Source: Cyclobacteriaceae bacterium (lineage in GTDB: Bacteria; Bacteroidota; Bacteroidia; Cytophagales; Cyclobacteriaceae). From it: a stretch of 63,848 nucleotides of DNA. The position numbers and the translations under genes were made by a program. The notes below the pieces were generated by a model. It saw nothing but the letters and a program-made list of their open reading frames with translations. It had not been told where the DNA came from and searched no databases. This document shows, one piece after another, positions 52,726-57,636 of this stretch (the first letter of the stretch is position 1; every line of letters begins with the position of its first letter). The DNA is taken from the NCBI GenBank assembly GCA_029858965.1, contig JAOUDZ010000019.1, positions 1-63,848 of the forward strand. The letters run 5' to 3'.

Positions 52726-53829
52726 TTAAACTCGCTCCTCTACTTTGTTCATCACTTTCGTTTGAATTTGAATTGATTCCTGGTGAATAAGCTTGAGTAA
52801 ATCGTTTGTAAAATTTGAATTAAGGCCCATGGCTTTCCCCAGCGTTATTCGGGTATCAATAATTTCCTCCCAGCGGCTTACCTGAAGAATAGTGACCCCA
52901 TTCTCCTTCTTGTATTGTCCGATTTTCTCAGAAATCTTCATCCGCGCTGCCATTTTCGACATGATCTCATCATCGAGCTGGTCAATCTGCTCACGCAATA
53001 TACTGAGCGTATCCTTAAAGGTTTTGTTATCAGACGAAACGGTTCGTACGACCAATCCCTGGATAATCTTTGACAAGGAGGAAGGCGTAACCTGTTGCTT
53101 CGCATCGCTCCAGGCTGCATCCGGATCAATGTGACTTTCAACCATTAATCCAACCATATCCAGATCGAGCGCTTTTTGACATATAAAAGAAATAAGTTCA
53201 CGATTACCGGCTATATGGCTTGGATCGCAGAGGATATCAAGCTCAGGAATACGTGTTTTTAATTCAATGGCAATATCCCACATCGGTGCGTTTCTGAAAG
53301 GACCTTTTTCAAAAGAAGAAAACCCACGGTGTATAGCAGCAAGCTTGGTAAGGCCGGCTTTGTTCAAACGCTCGAGGGCTCCAATCCAAAGTTCCAGGTC
53401 CGGATTGATAGGATTCTTCACCATGACCGGAATATCAACCCCTTTCAACGCATCGGCTATTTCCTGAACAGAAAAAGGATTAACTGTCGTGCGGGCACCT
53501 ACCCATAAAATATCAACTCCTGCTTTCAGGCAGGCGTCTACGTGTGCAGCATTTGCTACTTCTGTGGTTACGGGAAGTCCTGTTTCTTTCTTCGCCTGAA
53601 CAAGCCATTTCAATCCTTCTGTTCCGGATCCTTCATATTGCCCAGGCCTCGTGCGCGGTTTCCATATACCGGCACGCAGTGCGTGAACTTTGCCAGTGGC
53701 TGCCAATTGCTTTGCCGTAGCGAGCATCTGCTCTTCTGTTTCAGCACTGCAAGGGCCACTGATGATGATCGGCTTAGTGGCGGTTGGGAGCCATGTTGCA
53801 ATTGATTCAAGTTGTAATGCCTTTTTCAT
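52726..53829 (-). CDS. Bifunctional DAHP synthase / chorismate mutase
   Basis: A 367-residue fusion. Residues about 1-265 form a type I-beta (KDO8P-synthase-like) 3-deoxy-7-phosphoheptulonate synthase, condensing PEP and erythrose 4-phosphate. It has PIIISGPCSAETEEQML, ALRAGIWKPRTRPG, ILWVGARTTVNPFSVQEIADAL, MVKNPINPDLELWIGALERL and CDPSHIAGNR. Residues about 280-360 are an AroQ-type chorismate mutase helical domain (LREQIDQLDDEIMSKMAARMKISEKIGQYKKEN). Fusion of the first shikimate step with the first Phe/Tyr branch step allows joint feedback control. It is the last gene of the pheA operon, 14 bp after tyrA. Confidence 0.92.
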   Translation of the reverse strand: MKKALQLESIATWLPTATKPIIISGPCSAETEEQMLATAKQLAATGKVHALRAGIWKPRTRPGQYEGSGTEGLKWLVQAKKETGLPVTTEVANAAHVDACLKAGVDILWVGARTTVNPFSVQEIADALKGVDIPVMVKNPINPDLELWIGALERLNKAGLTKLAAIHRGFSSFEKGPFRNAPMWDIAIELKTRIPELDILCDPSHIAGNRELISFICQKALDLDMVGLMVESHIDPDAAWSDAKQQVTPSSLSKIIQGLVVRTVSSDNKTFKDTLSILREQIDQLDDEIMSKMAARMKISEKIGQYKKENGVTILQVSRWEEIIDTRITLGKAMGLNSNFTNDLLKLIHQESIQIQTKVMNKVEERV

Positions 53830-53843
53830 ATCTGTTTCAGTTT

Positions 53844-54725
53844 TTAATGTTCTACTTCTTGTTTAGGTTGTTTATGTTCAATTCCATTTAGAATTTCTCG
53901 TATTCGATTTGCCTCAGTCATGGTGCGGTGCAATTCTTTTACATCCCGCTTCATCAGGTAATATTGAAACTTCTGAAGATGCATGATATACTCCAACAGT
54001 GCCTGGCTCAGGTATTCCGCATTCTGTTCAAATATTGGTGCCCACATATCGGGAGAGCTTTTCGCCAACCTTACAGTGGATGCGAAACCACTTCCCGCAA
54101 GGGCGAAGATATTCTTCTCGTCGCGCTCTATATCCAGCACTGTTTGGCCCAGCAAGAAGGCACTTACATGCGATAGGTGCGACACATAAGCCACATGCTT
54201 ATCGTGCTCTTCAGGTTCCATAAAAATGGTATTCATCCCCAGCGTGGCAAACAATTTCTGCGCCACTGCCAAAATCGGCGCTGATGATTTTCCCTTCTCG
54301 CAGATAATATTAGTCTTGTTGCGAAACAACCCTGTAAAGGCGGCCTCAGGTCCCGAGTTTTCAGTACCCGATATAGGATGAGCAGCTACAAACTGTCCGC
54401 GATTTGGATGACTTGATACGGCGCGGCAAATCAGACTCTTCGTAGAACCCGTGTCTATGACAACAGCATCTTTTTTTACAACATCCAAAATGTGTGGAAG
54501 CAATTTACACAAGGCGCTTACCGGAATGGCCAGTATAACCAGATCAGTGGTAGGCAATGATGCATCATCCGATTGAATACTATCAACCAGACCCAGCTCA
54601 AGTGCCTTCAGCGCATTTACCGGATCCGACTCAATGCCTACGAGCTCGGTTGCCAAGCCTGCTTTTCGCAGATCCAATGCCATAGAGCCTCCAATTAATC
54701 CCAAACCGACAACTGTTATTTTCAT
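53844..54725 (-). CDS. tyrA: Prephenate dehydrogenase
   Basis: A 293-residue NAD-dependent enzyme converting prephenate to 4-hydroxyphenylpyruvate for tyrosine. The N-terminal Rossmann motif is VVGLGLIGGSMALDLRK, followed by VILAIPVSAL, VIDTGSTKSLI and the substrate motif AAHPISGTENSGPEAA. The helical C-terminal dimerisation domain holds DKHVAYVSHLSHVSAFLLG. It has no ACT domain, so allosteric control may lie elsewhere in the operon. It is separated from the aminotransferase gene by 11 bp and from the DAHP synthase gene by 14 bp. Confidence 0.94.
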   Translation of the reverse strand: MKITVVGLGLIGGSMALDLRKAGLATELVGIESDPVNALKALELGLVDSIQSDDASLPTTDLVILAIPVSALCKLLPHILDVVKKDAVVIDTGSTKSLICRAVSSHPNRGQFVAAHPISGTENSGPEAAFTGLFRNKTNIICEKGKSSAPILAVAQKLFATLGMNTIFMEPEEHDKHVAYVSHLSHVSAFLLGQTVLDIERDEKNIFALAGSGFASTVRLAKSSPDMWAPIFEQNAEYLSQALLEYIMHLQKFQYYLMKRDVKELHRTMTEANRIREILNGIEHKQPKQEVEH

Positions 54726-54736
54726 CTTTTTATTTA

Positions 54737-55939
54737 TTAAACATTTATCGGTGTTTCGCGATCAAGAACAGATGAACTATTCTTTAGAAATTTTTCAATT
54801 CGAAGGAATGCTTCATTCAGCATTTCCACTGTACAGCACAATGAAATACGGATGTATCTTTTTCCCGCGTCACCAAAAATAAATCCAGGTGTAATAAAAA
54901 CCTTGGTGCCATATAAAATTTCATCGATCCATTTTTCAACGTTTTCAACATGCTCCGGTGCTTTTGCCCAGACAAATAATCCGGCCTGCTTTTCAGCATA
55001 AGAACAACCCAGCACATCCAGAACTTTTGTGGCCATTTGTTTTCTTTCAGCATATACTTTGTTTAAGGAAGTAAACCAGTCATCCCCATTTTTCAATGCT
55101 TCAACTGCTGCATGTTGCAAACCCAAAAACATTCCGGAATCCATGTTGCTTTTTACTTTCAAAACGGCATCTATGTATTCCTTCCTACCTGCAGCCCACC
55201 CGATACGCCAACCAGCCATATTATGCGACTTGCTAAGCGAGTTCAATTCGAGCGCCACCGTGTCAGCTCCCGGTATAGAGAGAATACTCATGGGGCTATC
55301 ATTCAAAATCAGACTGTAGGGGTTGTCGTTCACAATCAGAAATTGATGCTCGCGGGCCAGGCCCACCAACTCCTTCAATTCATTTCGAGAAGCTACTCTT
55401 CCGGTAGGCATATGCGGGAAATTAACCCACATGATTTTAACCTTTGACAGGTCGCTATTTCGCAGCGCGTCAATATCAATGCCCCAGTCGAGATCTTCGC
55501 GCAACGCATAGGGTCTTAGATTCGCGCCAACCAGTGTTGCTACCGATGAATACGTTGGATAGCCCGGGTTCGGAATTAACACCTCATCGCCTTCGTTCAC
55601 AAAAGCCATCATAATGTGCATAATGCCCTCTTTTGAACCCATTAATGGAAGGACCATATGCTCAGGGTCAATTGAAACCTGGTAAAATTTCCTGTAAAAA
55701 TCAGCAATACCTTTCCGCAGCTGCGGAATACCTTTGTAACTCTGATACCCGTGGTTGGCCGGATTGCTTGCCGAAACCGTCAACGCATCAATCGTTGAAG
55801 CGGAAGGAGCCAGGTCAGGACTTCCAATACCCAGGTTTATAACCCTGAGCGTTGGCGAATCCAGGCCTCTGACCTCAGCAAGTTTTCTGCTGAAATAGTA
55901 TTCTTCCACGTTTGAGATTCTGTTTGCTGTCTTTATCAT
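54737..55939 (-). CDS. Class I/II aminotransferase of the Phe/Tyr operon
   Basis: A 400-residue PLP enzyme. It shows LGIGSPDLAPS, MGSKEGIMHIMMAFVNEGDEVLIPNPGYPTY, VNFPHMPTGRVAS (Asn-Pro-like substrate region), VNDNPYSLI and the PLP lysine in NSLSKSHNMAGWRIGWAAG, then the arginine motif YIRISLC. The position between pheA and tyrA points to the final transamination of phenylpyruvate and 4-hydroxyphenylpyruvate. By sequence alone it resembles LL-diaminopimelate/aspartate aminotransferases, so specificity is inferred from context. Confidence 0.88.
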   Translation of the reverse strand: MIKTANRISNVEEYYFSRKLAEVRGLDSPTLRVINLGIGSPDLAPSASTIDALTVSASNPANHGYQSYKGIPQLRKGIADFYRKFYQVSIDPEHMVLPLMGSKEGIMHIMMAFVNEGDEVLIPNPGYPTYSSVATLVGANLRPYALREDLDWGIDIDALRNSDLSKVKIMWVNFPHMPTGRVASRNELKELVGLAREHQFLIVNDNPYSLILNDSPMSILSIPGADTVALELNSLSKSHNMAGWRIGWAAGRKEYIDAVLKVKSNMDSGMFLGLQHAAVEALKNGDDWFTSLNKVYAERKQMATKVLDVLGCSYAEKQAGLFVWAKAPEHVENVEKWIDEILYGTKVFITPGFIFGDAGKRYIRISLCCTVEMLNEAFLRIEKFLKNSSSVLDRETPINV

Positions 55940-55979: not shown

Positions 55980-56822
55980 CTATTTATACTCTATTTTCCC
56001 CTTTTTATACTCCCCCAATACATTCAAATTCTTCACCTGTCTTAGCACAGCGTGCATTGCATCGTCATAGTTCTTTCTTCGCCTCCATTCAACGTCGATA
56101 TGAATTGAATATTCGCTTGGCTTTCCAATGATCGGAATAGATTGTATTTTGGTCAGGTTGATGCTGTTATTTTTTAATGTCATCAGCGCGTCAGCAAGGC
56201 TTCCAACCTCGTTGGCCACCTCGAAACACAACGACGCCTTATTGCTTTCCGTTTTGCCATTCCCGCGCTTCGTCAGAATCAGAAAGCGGGTAAAGTTCTT
56301 TTTATGCGTTTCAATTCGCTTTTCCAAAACCTGGAGGCCATACTTTTTCGCAGAATACTCATTGGCAATGGCGGCCGTATTTTTCAGCTTCAATTCTTTG
56401 ACGCGCTTTGCTGAAAGCGCTGTATCATCACTTTCCCGGATCTCGACACCGGGCAGCGCTTGCAAATACTCAGCACACTGCCGAATGGCCATGGGGTGGG
56501 ATTCAATAACTTTGATGTCATTCAACTTTACACCCGGGAGAACCAACAAATGCATGTGAATGGGCAAATAAATTTCGCCTACTATGCTGAAATGATACTC
56601 CTGCAAAAGGAAATAGTTCGGCAGAATACTTCCAGCAATTGAGTTTTCAATGGCCATAACTGCCGCATCAGCCTTTCCGTTCTGTAAGCTTTCACATAAC
56701 TGATGAAAGGATAGACACGCTATCGTTTCAACAGGCTCCCGGAAATAGGTGAGTGCCGCTATTTCGTGAAAGCTGGTAGCGATACCCTGGATTGCAATAC
56801 GTGGTTTCTTTTTCTTTGCCAT
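55980..56822 (-). CDS. pheA: Prephenate dehydratase with ACT domain
   Basis: A 280-residue enzyme making phenylpyruvate from prephenate. It has RIAIQGIATSFHEIAALTYF, AVMAIENSIAGSILPNYFLL, IGEIYLPIHMHLL-like and the catalytic TRF triplet in NFTRFLILTKRG. A C-terminal ACT domain (about 195-275) is present, but the Phe-binding ESRP motif is replaced by IQSIPIIGKPSEYSIHID. Allosteric inhibition by Phe may therefore be altered, as in other Bacteroidota as far as I recall. It is the first structural gene of the operon, 89 bp after the leader-peptide stop codon and 22 bp after an intrinsic terminator. Confidence 0.93.
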   Translation of the reverse strand: MAKKKKPRIAIQGIATSFHEIAALTYFREPVETIACLSFHQLCESLQNGKADAAVMAIENSIAGSILPNYFLLQEYHFSIVGEIYLPIHMHLLVLPGVKLNDIKVIESHPMAIRQCAEYLQALPGVEIRESDDTALSAKRVKELKLKNTAAIANEYSAKKYGLQVLEKRIETHKKNFTRFLILTKRGNGKTESNKASLCFEVANEVGSLADALMTLKNNSINLTKIQSIPIIGKPSEYSIHIDVEWRRRKNYDDAMHAVLRQVKNLNVLGEYKKGKIEYK

Positions 56823-56839: not shown

Positions 56840-56870
56840 AAGCAAAAAGTCCCGGTTTTCCGGGACTTTT
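56840..56870 (-). terminator. Attenuator terminator in the pheA leader
   Basis: Read leftward: AAAAGTCCCGG - AAAA - CCGGGACTTTT (56870-56845), an 11-bp perfect stem with an A4 loop followed by TTGCTTTT. It lies between the leader peptide and the pheA start, so it must be conditionally bypassed for the operon to be expressed. Confidence 0.88.
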
Positions 56871-56976
56871 CTGAGGTTTTCGTTATCGTTTAGTCAACAA
56901 CACATCACTCTTAAAGTCCCGCTCGGGTACTAAAAAAGAAGTAATAAAAGTAAAAAGATGTGCTACCGATTTTCAT
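56845..56976 (-). promoter_or_regulatory. Phe/Tyr transcription attenuator (leader peptide, antiterminator, terminator)
   Basis: Three elements occur in the order needed for ribosome-mediated attenuation. They are a leader ORF with eight consecutive Phe/Tyr codons (56976-56911), a segment CGGGACTTT (56921-56913) that overlaps the leader's last codons and stop, and the terminator (56870-56845). The segment is identical to the core of the terminator's right arm and is complementary over 9 nt to its left arm (AAAGTCCCG). A ribosome stalled at the aromatic codons would leave the segment free to pair with the left arm (antitermination). A ribosome reaching the stop codon would cover it and let the terminator form. 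Confidence 0.85.
56911..56976 (-). CDS. pheA operon leader peptide (21 residues)
   Basis: A short ORF from ATG 56976 to TAA 56911. The peptide begins MKIGSTS, then has the aromatic run FYFYYFFF (residues 8-15: five Phe, three Tyr), then STRAGL. It is analogous to the E. coli PheL leader but mixes Phe and Tyr, matching an operon that makes both. It is 89 bp upstream of pheA and ends within the antiterminator segment. The peptide itself probably has no function beyond stalling. Confidence 0.85.
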   Translation of the reverse strand: MKIGSTSFYFYYFFFSTRAGL

Positions 56977-56994
56977 ATCTGCAGTTGAAGGTTC

Positions 56995-57025
56995 CAAAGG
57001 AAAATATTTTTTATTCGAATTGCAA
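56995..57025 (-). promoter_or_regulatory. Putative promoter of the pheA operon
   Basis: Read leftward: TTG (57025-57023), a 20-bp spacer and TTCCTTTG (57002-56995), one mismatch from the TAnnTTTG consensus. Transcription would start near 56989, about 13 nt before the leader-peptide ATG, and the terminated leader RNA would be about 150 nt. Confidence 0.45.
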
Positions 57026-57180: not shown

Positions 57181-57636
57181 ATGAAAGCAATAATACAAAA
57201 AGTTCTCTTCATTATCCTGCTCATTGTTACCTGGAGTTGCGGACAGCGTTCGCACAATCACGATGAGCATGATCACGGTTCTGATGAAGCCATTGAAACG
57301 GGAGAAAACCAGGCCTTGTATGACGAAGTCATGACCGTACACGATGAAGTGATGCCCAAAATGAATGACTTATATAAATTAAAAGAAGCGCTCAAAACCC
57401 GGATTACCGATACCCCGGCAATGCCAGCGGATAAGAAAGAGGCGATTGAAGACCTGATCTTGAAACTCGATTCTGCCAGCGAAGGCATGATGGTTTGGAT
57501 GCGCAATTTCAACCCTTTGCCCGACAGTCTCGGAGAAGAACAGGCCAAAGAATATTTGGAGAACGAAATGGTGAAGGTAAAGAAAGTAAGAGCGGAAATT
57601 TATGAAGCTATAGAAAGGGCTACCGACATAAACTAG
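57181..57636 (+). CDS. Small helical lipoprotein with histidine-rich N-terminus
   Basis: A 151-residue protein with a lipoprotein signal (LFIILLIVTWSCG; lipidated Cys at about 20). It is followed by a His/Asp-rich stretch (HNHDEHDHGSDE), which could bind metal, and a mostly helical, strongly charged body with regularly spaced Met residues (DEVMTVHDEVMPKMNDLYKLK, EGMMVWMRNFNP). It is not recognised beyond a general Bacteroidota lipoprotein type. It is divergent from the pheA operon, and the 205 bp between its ATG and the leader-peptide ATG hold both promoters. A metal-related role is speculative. Confidence 0.75.
   Translation: MKAIIQKVLFIILLIVTWSCGQRSHNHDEHDHGSDEAIETGENQALYDEVMTVHDEVMPKMNDLYKLKEALKTRITDTPAMPADKKEAIEDLILKLDSASEGMMVWMRNFNPLPDSLGEEQAKEYLENEMVKVKKVRAEIYEAIERATDIN

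Follow-up and report, generated by a model that had tools for sequence, protein, structure and literature searches.

The window analyzed here (the whole stretch of 63,848 nucleotides from contig JAOUDZ010000019.1 of a Cyclobacteriaceae bacterium) carries on its minus strand an operon of four genes: pheA, encoding a monofunctional prephenate dehydratase (55980–56822; PF00800, 2.5e-57), a gene for a class I/II aminotransferase (54737–55939; PF00155, 1.7e-60), tyrA, encoding prephenate dehydrogenase (53844–54725; NF006307, 343 bits with a cut-off of 295), and a gene for a DAHP synthase/chorismate mutase fusion (DAHPS/CM; 52726–53829; PF00793 and PF01817). The Pfam and NCBIfam matches bear out the gene identities assigned in the original prediction, and the same gene order is found in 68 of 78 related loci. 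The ATG of pheA lies at 56822, and the gene on the far side of the leader promoter region (57181–57636) is divergent, so that the terminator described below serves only the pheA transcript and no upstream gene on the minus strand.

All leader features lie on the minus strand. The leader peptide ORF, MKIGSTSFYFYYFFFSTRAGL, spans 21 codons (56976–56911; ATG at 56976, TAA stop at 56913–56911), has aromatic counterparts in relatives and holds eight consecutive Phe/Tyr codons, FYFYYFFF (56955–56932); the ORF and its aromatic run before pheA, on which the original prediction was built, are thus real. Region 1 (CCCG, 56927–56924) supplies the CCC predicted to pair with the GGG of region 2, as seen in the alignment and by RNAalifold. 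Region 2 (CGGGACTTT, 56921–56913) lies over the last leader codons and the stop and, from its pairing and the folding series, is the predicted 5′ arm of an antiterminator, whose 3′ arm, region 3 (56869–56861; placed by the alignment), also lies within the 5′ arm of the terminator; the 9-nt complementarity claimed between these two stretches is likewise real. An inner stem in the stretch from region 2 to region 3 (56910–56873; folding series and spacer z-scores) lengthens the antiterminator; it is made up of GAG (56910–56908) with CTC (56875–56873) and a hairpin of 56902–56895 with 56888–56881. Regions 3 and 4 together form an intrinsic terminator of 12 pairs with a 4-nt loop (56859–56856) and a U-rich tail (56871–56844; hairpin scan and alignment), which ends 21 nt before the pheA ATG; a terminator had been expected here as 11 bp at 56870–56845, 22 bp before pheA, and it is present but longer. 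The terminator search of this kilobase gave one match, with 0.9 expected from shuffles, and the folding of the window's leader beats all 200 shuffles (z = −3.56).

The promoter-like TTG-N20-TTCCTTTG claimed upstream of the leader is found 18 nt before the leader ATG. It comprises a putative −33 element, TTG, of the Bacteroidetes type (57025–57023; 8 of 9 for the window in the spacing scan) and a putative −7 element, TTCCTTTG (57002–56995; consensus TAnnTTTG), at whose position several near relatives have TATCTTTG. Promoter scores of 8 or 9 out of 9 were obtained at 18 of 67 loci and in 7.4% of shuffles, a comparison that lends moderate support only to the putative promoter.

The comparison drew on 78 pheA relatives from genome records, including Chryseolinea, Ohtaekwangia and many Cyclobacteriaceae and Cytophagales MAGs, 76 of which were used (L073 starts within the gene and the match of L079 begins at residue 54). 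Within 330 nt before pheA, the scan sought a short ORF and counted aromatic residues per nine codons. At least seven aromatics in nine codons were present in 71 of the 76 relatives, in 0 of 660 random windows from the same loci and in 0 of 760 shuffled upstream regions; with at least six, the counts were 74, 2 and 4, respectively. The window has a single run of eight TTY/TAY codons, and 100 shuffles gave none. The 5.1-Mb genome has two such runs and four matches to the reversed control pattern, so that the aromatic run alone is not rare genome-wide, and its weight comes from place and conservation. The second genomic run lies antisense inside a coding gene and hence is no further leader. Among 783 codon comparisons between loci with an identical run peptide, all 147 differences fell at the third codon position, with 0 at the first and 0 at the second. 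Separately, the run of L054 seems one base short when set against that of L055, a close relative, and this puts the leader out of frame, through either sequencing error or decay.

Across 70 loci, the runs contain 297 Phe, 230 Tyr, and 18 Trp codons, the Trp codons standing inside the run in several subgroups (FYFWFYF). This composition bears on the idea that the leader effectively senses one amino acid, Phe, in keeping with the first gene being pheA, with Tyr codons hardly stalling the ribosome. Phe codons do outnumber Tyr codons, and proteobacterial pheA leaders are Phe-rich, but Tyr codons come close in number and are found again in leaders from other families, and tyrA usually resides in the same operon; we consider Phe-only sensing unlikely. 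Under the preferred reading of a mixed aromatic leader, shortage of either amino acid should give read-through, because the Phe and Tyr codons are mixed.

The pairings were analyzed in 70 of 77 sequences, after removal of two duplicates (L044 and L047), one sequence with no start (L013), L075, before whose pheA a leader was looked for and none was visible, and L026, L048, and L052, in which the simple terminator scan missed the hairpin (a bulged one is visible in L026 and L048). The alignment comprised 67 of these 70, without L008, L042, and L070; its sequences are kin, and shuffles therefore overstate significance. In the terminator columns, 98.7% of the cells are paired, and 40 cells are changed on both sides, compared with a shuffled mean of 5.8 and 17 in the best slid version: the terminator arms covary. 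The match between regions 2 and 3 is better than in shuffled spacers at the 0.05 level in 71 of the 77 loci, and 84.2% of its aligned cells are paired (at most 58.8% when slid by 1 to 3 columns), the last pair being mostly absent. Nine 2:3 cells are changed on both sides with a shuffled mean of 2.4, but a slide by +1 gives 13, so that these double changes are not specific; counts of doubly changed 2:3 pairs and of pair types showed no excess over shuffles, and covariation of the antiterminator itself is weak. The covariation sought for both pairings thus holds for the terminator (3:4), whereas the mutually exclusive 2:3 antiterminator is conserved as a pairing in relatives with few double changes. 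Folding of the spacer that separates regions 2 and 3 is more stable than that of its shuffled versions, with a mean z of −1.48 over the 70 loci, a z below −1 in 47 of them, and −3.5 in the window. The 1:2 hairpin, the candidate protector, is present in 97.5% of the cells, no more than in shuffles and with no double changes; with a mean of −3.9 kcal/mol it is a short helix, and it does not dominate when the RNA is folded with no ribosome. Unaided, RNAalifold recovers the terminator and the 1:2 hairpin, but not 2:3. Conservation in relatives had been named beforehand as the test that could refute the prediction, and the relatives retain the mini-ORF as well as both pairings (2:3 and 3:4) and the spacing.

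Because the aligned loci are kin, the arms were also compared between families, using 27 hand-picked representatives with a leader: 23, counting the window, spread over 16 families, plus 4 relatives (G072, G099, G230, and G238, which failed the terminator scan, are not among them). Leaders of other families combine different arm sequences with the same anatomy, the arm pairs varying, for example, as AGTCAGG/CCTGACT, GTCAGGATTGTG/TACAATCCTGAT and GGAGGCGGGA/TCCCGCCTCC. The arms of one and the same leader score 20.9 on average and swapped arms 14.9, a result reached by 0 of 10,000 permutations. For 10 of the 27 representatives no swapped arm equals the own arm, and for 8 of them at least 8 of the 26 swapped arms do.

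Ribosome positions were modeled with the ribosome reaching 16 nt beyond the first base of the P site, and distances of 13 and 19 nt were also tried for the whole-genome loci described below. In the window, the model predicts that an aromatic codon in the A site leaves region 2 free, the last such codon exactly so. For each stall tried in the range of codons 8–15, the window RNA up to region 3 is predicted to form one long hairpin of about −23 kcal/mol, whose energy drops to −13.4 kcal/mol at codon 16 and to −1.7 kcal/mol at the stop. In all 70 loci, made up of the window and 69 relatives, the antiterminator is predicted to be able to form while the ribosome sits on the aromatic codons and to disappear within two codons of the last one. 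At that last aromatic codon 93% of the folding energy remains; most of it disappears at the following codon in 64 loci and one codon later still in 6, and a ribosome with the stop codon in its A site leaves an average of 3% and a maximum of 23%. Among whole-genome loci, 30 of 33 from 15 families show the loss 1 to 3 codons past the final aromatic codon, with about 26% for shuffled spacers. In the model, then, the codons are placed such that a stall would free region 2 and a ribosome at the stop would mask it. In 55 of the 70 loci, the antiterminator is already the predicted fold of RNA ending at region 3 when no ribosome is present, so that an untranslated leader may read through; the E. coli trp leader differs, read-through not being expected when it is untranslated. 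In each state tried, the terminator, once complete, is more stable than the alternative fold, and antitermination must consequently be kinetic.

From this anatomy and its conservation, we infer the following course of events. RNA polymerase would start near 56990, with the leader ORF translated behind it. When charged tRNA-Phe or tRNA-Tyr is short, a ribosome would wait at the aromatic run with its leading edge at or before the start of region 2; the free region 2 could then pair with region 3 in a 9-bp helix prolonged by the inner stem, the terminator would not form in time, and the whole pheA-aminotransferase-tyrA-DAHPS/CM operon would be transcribed. When both tRNAs are charged, the ribosome would reach the stop and cover regions 1 and 2, and region 3 would join region 4 as the terminator. 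Genes of the Bacteroidia largely do without Shine-Dalgarno sequences. Such sequences are likewise largely absent in Flavobacterium psychrophilum (PMC9723704).

A run of product codons thus lies in a short ORF before the first gene, and a terminator lies between this ORF and pheA. Together with the comparative conservation, the codon constraint, the covariation of the terminator and the modeled geometry, this supports the original reading of the pheA leader as, very probably, a ribosome-mediated transcription attenuator. An ordinary partial terminator accompanied by a fortuitous T-rich ORF, or a sensor of translation rate lacking amino-acid specificity, is improbable: T-rich runs do arise elsewhere in the genome by chance, as the two matches and four control matches illustrate, but codon conservation at the amino-acid level, the sharp geometry at the last aromatic codon and the matching of own arms in other families all oppose a fortuitous ORF. 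A ligand-binding riboswitch, T-box or RNA-binding-protein attenuator can practically be dismissed, for although these are also found before amino-acid operons, no Rfam family, T-box included, was detected in the window at the gathering score, the relaxed list for the leader contained only matches under gathering scores with no T-box among them, and little sequence is conserved outside the leader and the pairing arms.

The distribution of such leaders was assessed in a whole-genome set of 151 loci, among the matches listed (G323, G406, G528, and G529 were left out); this set and the set of relatives overlap, and some assemblies are probably common to both (e.g., G049 and L033). An ORF with at least six aromatics in nine codons precedes pheA in 38 of the 151 listed loci: 3 of 7 from the window's own family, 12 of 77 from the order, 23 of 38 from the class, and 0 of 29 from further off. 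Conversely, no aromatic leader was found in 65 of the 77 listed loci of the order or in any of the 29 of the wider phylum. The leader was present in 36 of 39 listed loci with a DAHPS/CM gene downstream and in 0 of 53 without one, a comparison covering the 92 loci with enough downstream sequence (59 of the 151 were skipped). One of the three exceptions, G297, has a looser leader, with five aromatics in nine codons, and a terminator; G516, a locus of the order skipped for its short downstream sequence, has an ORF with six aromatics. By family majority, 14 families have both leader and DAHPS/CM, 3 only DAHPS/CM, 0 only the leader, and 19 neither. The association is confounded by kinship, yet the window's own family holds both states, with 3 of its 7 whole genomes having leader and DAHPS/CM and 4 having neither. 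Loci of this family with no leader and no DAHPS/CM in the stretch examined are L115, L116, L150, and L200, in three of which pheA directly follows another coding gene. A Trp-like candidate, GWPWPLC, before pheA in G076, G111, and G194 of the same family was rejected, being by eye an alternate frame of the 3′ end of the upstream gene; the true frame of that gene holds a motif that we take to be that of EPSP synthase.

The window carries a single module, a module being an aromatic leader ORF with a terminator-like hairpin of its own behind it. A scan of up to 600 nt upstream of pheA at 278 loci in all, from partly overlapping assemblies, revealed 2 such modules in tandem, with leader starts 125 to 173 nt apart, at 8 of 31 loci in one family of the order (f2; the 31 come from 46 genomes with a match) and at 13 of 27 in one family of the class (f8), and at 0 of the 220 other loci. 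The loci scanned in these two families include L180 and L258–L286 (f2) and L287–L313 (f8). In f2, G072 and G581 have two leader ORFs each, but miss the hairpin or the codon criterion. Of the 42 tandem modules, 24 reach significance at 0.05 for the 2:3 match, so not every module is convincing alone. Modules within one locus have a likeness of 0.52 compared with 0.46 between loci, a difference too slight to establish recent duplication.

Taken together, these data make it likely that an old and widespread family of mixed aromatic (Phe/Tyr, sometimes Trp) attenuators gates the aromatic pathway in Bacteroidia, present where DAHPS/CM belongs to the pheA operon and missing elsewhere, and paired in series with the same codon specificity in two families. 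A single mixed leader seems to control both end products as well as the shared first enzyme, and a serial pair, if acting as such, would multiply two termination steps and so give a steeper response.

Leaders for other amino acids were seen in the same genome and speak for the attenuator reading at pheA. A His leader, MKKVINTISHHHHHIKHNVRGRAVV, with a terminator-like hairpin (by eye) stands before hisG (L254; contig C123 of G000, near 65,690, minus strand), and a Trp leader, MVRFTKIAWWWHKSNVDV, also with such a hairpin by eye, before trpE (L255; contig C136 of G000, before 2420, plus strand). A pattern search for four His codons proved insufficiently selective, with 55 matches and 14 for the reversed control, and the His leader was found via hisG. 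At the ilvD loci L257 and L256 no clear leader was seen; a coding frame ends shortly before L256.

The proposed mechanism is classical and its kind known. The closest known systems include pheL and the Rfam family RF01859 (Phe_leader), which have the same first gene, a leader peptide with Phe codons, alternative hairpins, and a terminator, whereas the run in the window is mixed Phe/Tyr(/Trp) and tyrA and DAHPS/CM belong to the same operon; RF01859 scored 20.2 bits against the window's leader, under its gathering score of 55. Two older comparative studies of attenuation are those of Vitreschak in 2004, whose abstract reportedly mentions candidates in Bacteroidetes/Chlorobi, and of Lopatovskaya in 2010. 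Leader-peptide systems were described in 2010 as shown only in Proteobacteria and Actinobacteria (PMC2965389), in a main text where neither "Bacteroid-" nor pheA occurs; the accessible text of PMC2864571 and PMC4833913 has nothing on pheA. Short ORFs reminiscent of leader peptides have been noted in Bacteroides thetaiotaomicron (PMC7366714). Table 7 of a 2005 paper (PMC1173090) lists, from a web database, a putative attenuator before the pheA > hisHb > aroA-aroQ > tyrA operon of B. thetaiotaomicron, that is, a predicted attenuator before the same genes in the same phylum, although the entry gives no leader peptide, codons or comparative test. In F. psychrophilum, a structured 5′ element precedes the same gene, pheA, and clues for leader-peptide attenuation of amino-acid operons were reported in 2021 (PMC9723704); that text describes no pheA peptide, and the conservation claimed there is for other genera of the Flavobacteriaceae.

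The statement in the original prediction that no Phe/Tyr attenuator had been described in Bacteroidota consequently needs narrowing: a putative pheA attenuator and a structured pheA element were known (PMC1173090, PMC9723704), whereas a mixed Phe/Tyr leader in this phylum had no description among the matches listed, subscription journals being largely outside the literature search. The same search, with the same coverage, listed no description of tandem attenuators for one signal. The leader of the window is a well supported member of this kind, which takes a notable tandem form in relatives, and the results suggest that leader-peptide attenuation is a regular control of amino-acid synthesis in many Bacteroidia. 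The tandem relatives, though not the window itself, resemble the Salmonella mgtCBR leader, in which two short ORFs in one leader mediate attenuation in tandem (PMC3641672). The two mgtCBR ORFs sense different signals, ATP and proline, whereas in the tandem relatives both modules are aromatic, each with its own terminator-like hairpin. These loci lend themselves naturally to testing the contribution of a second serial attenuator.
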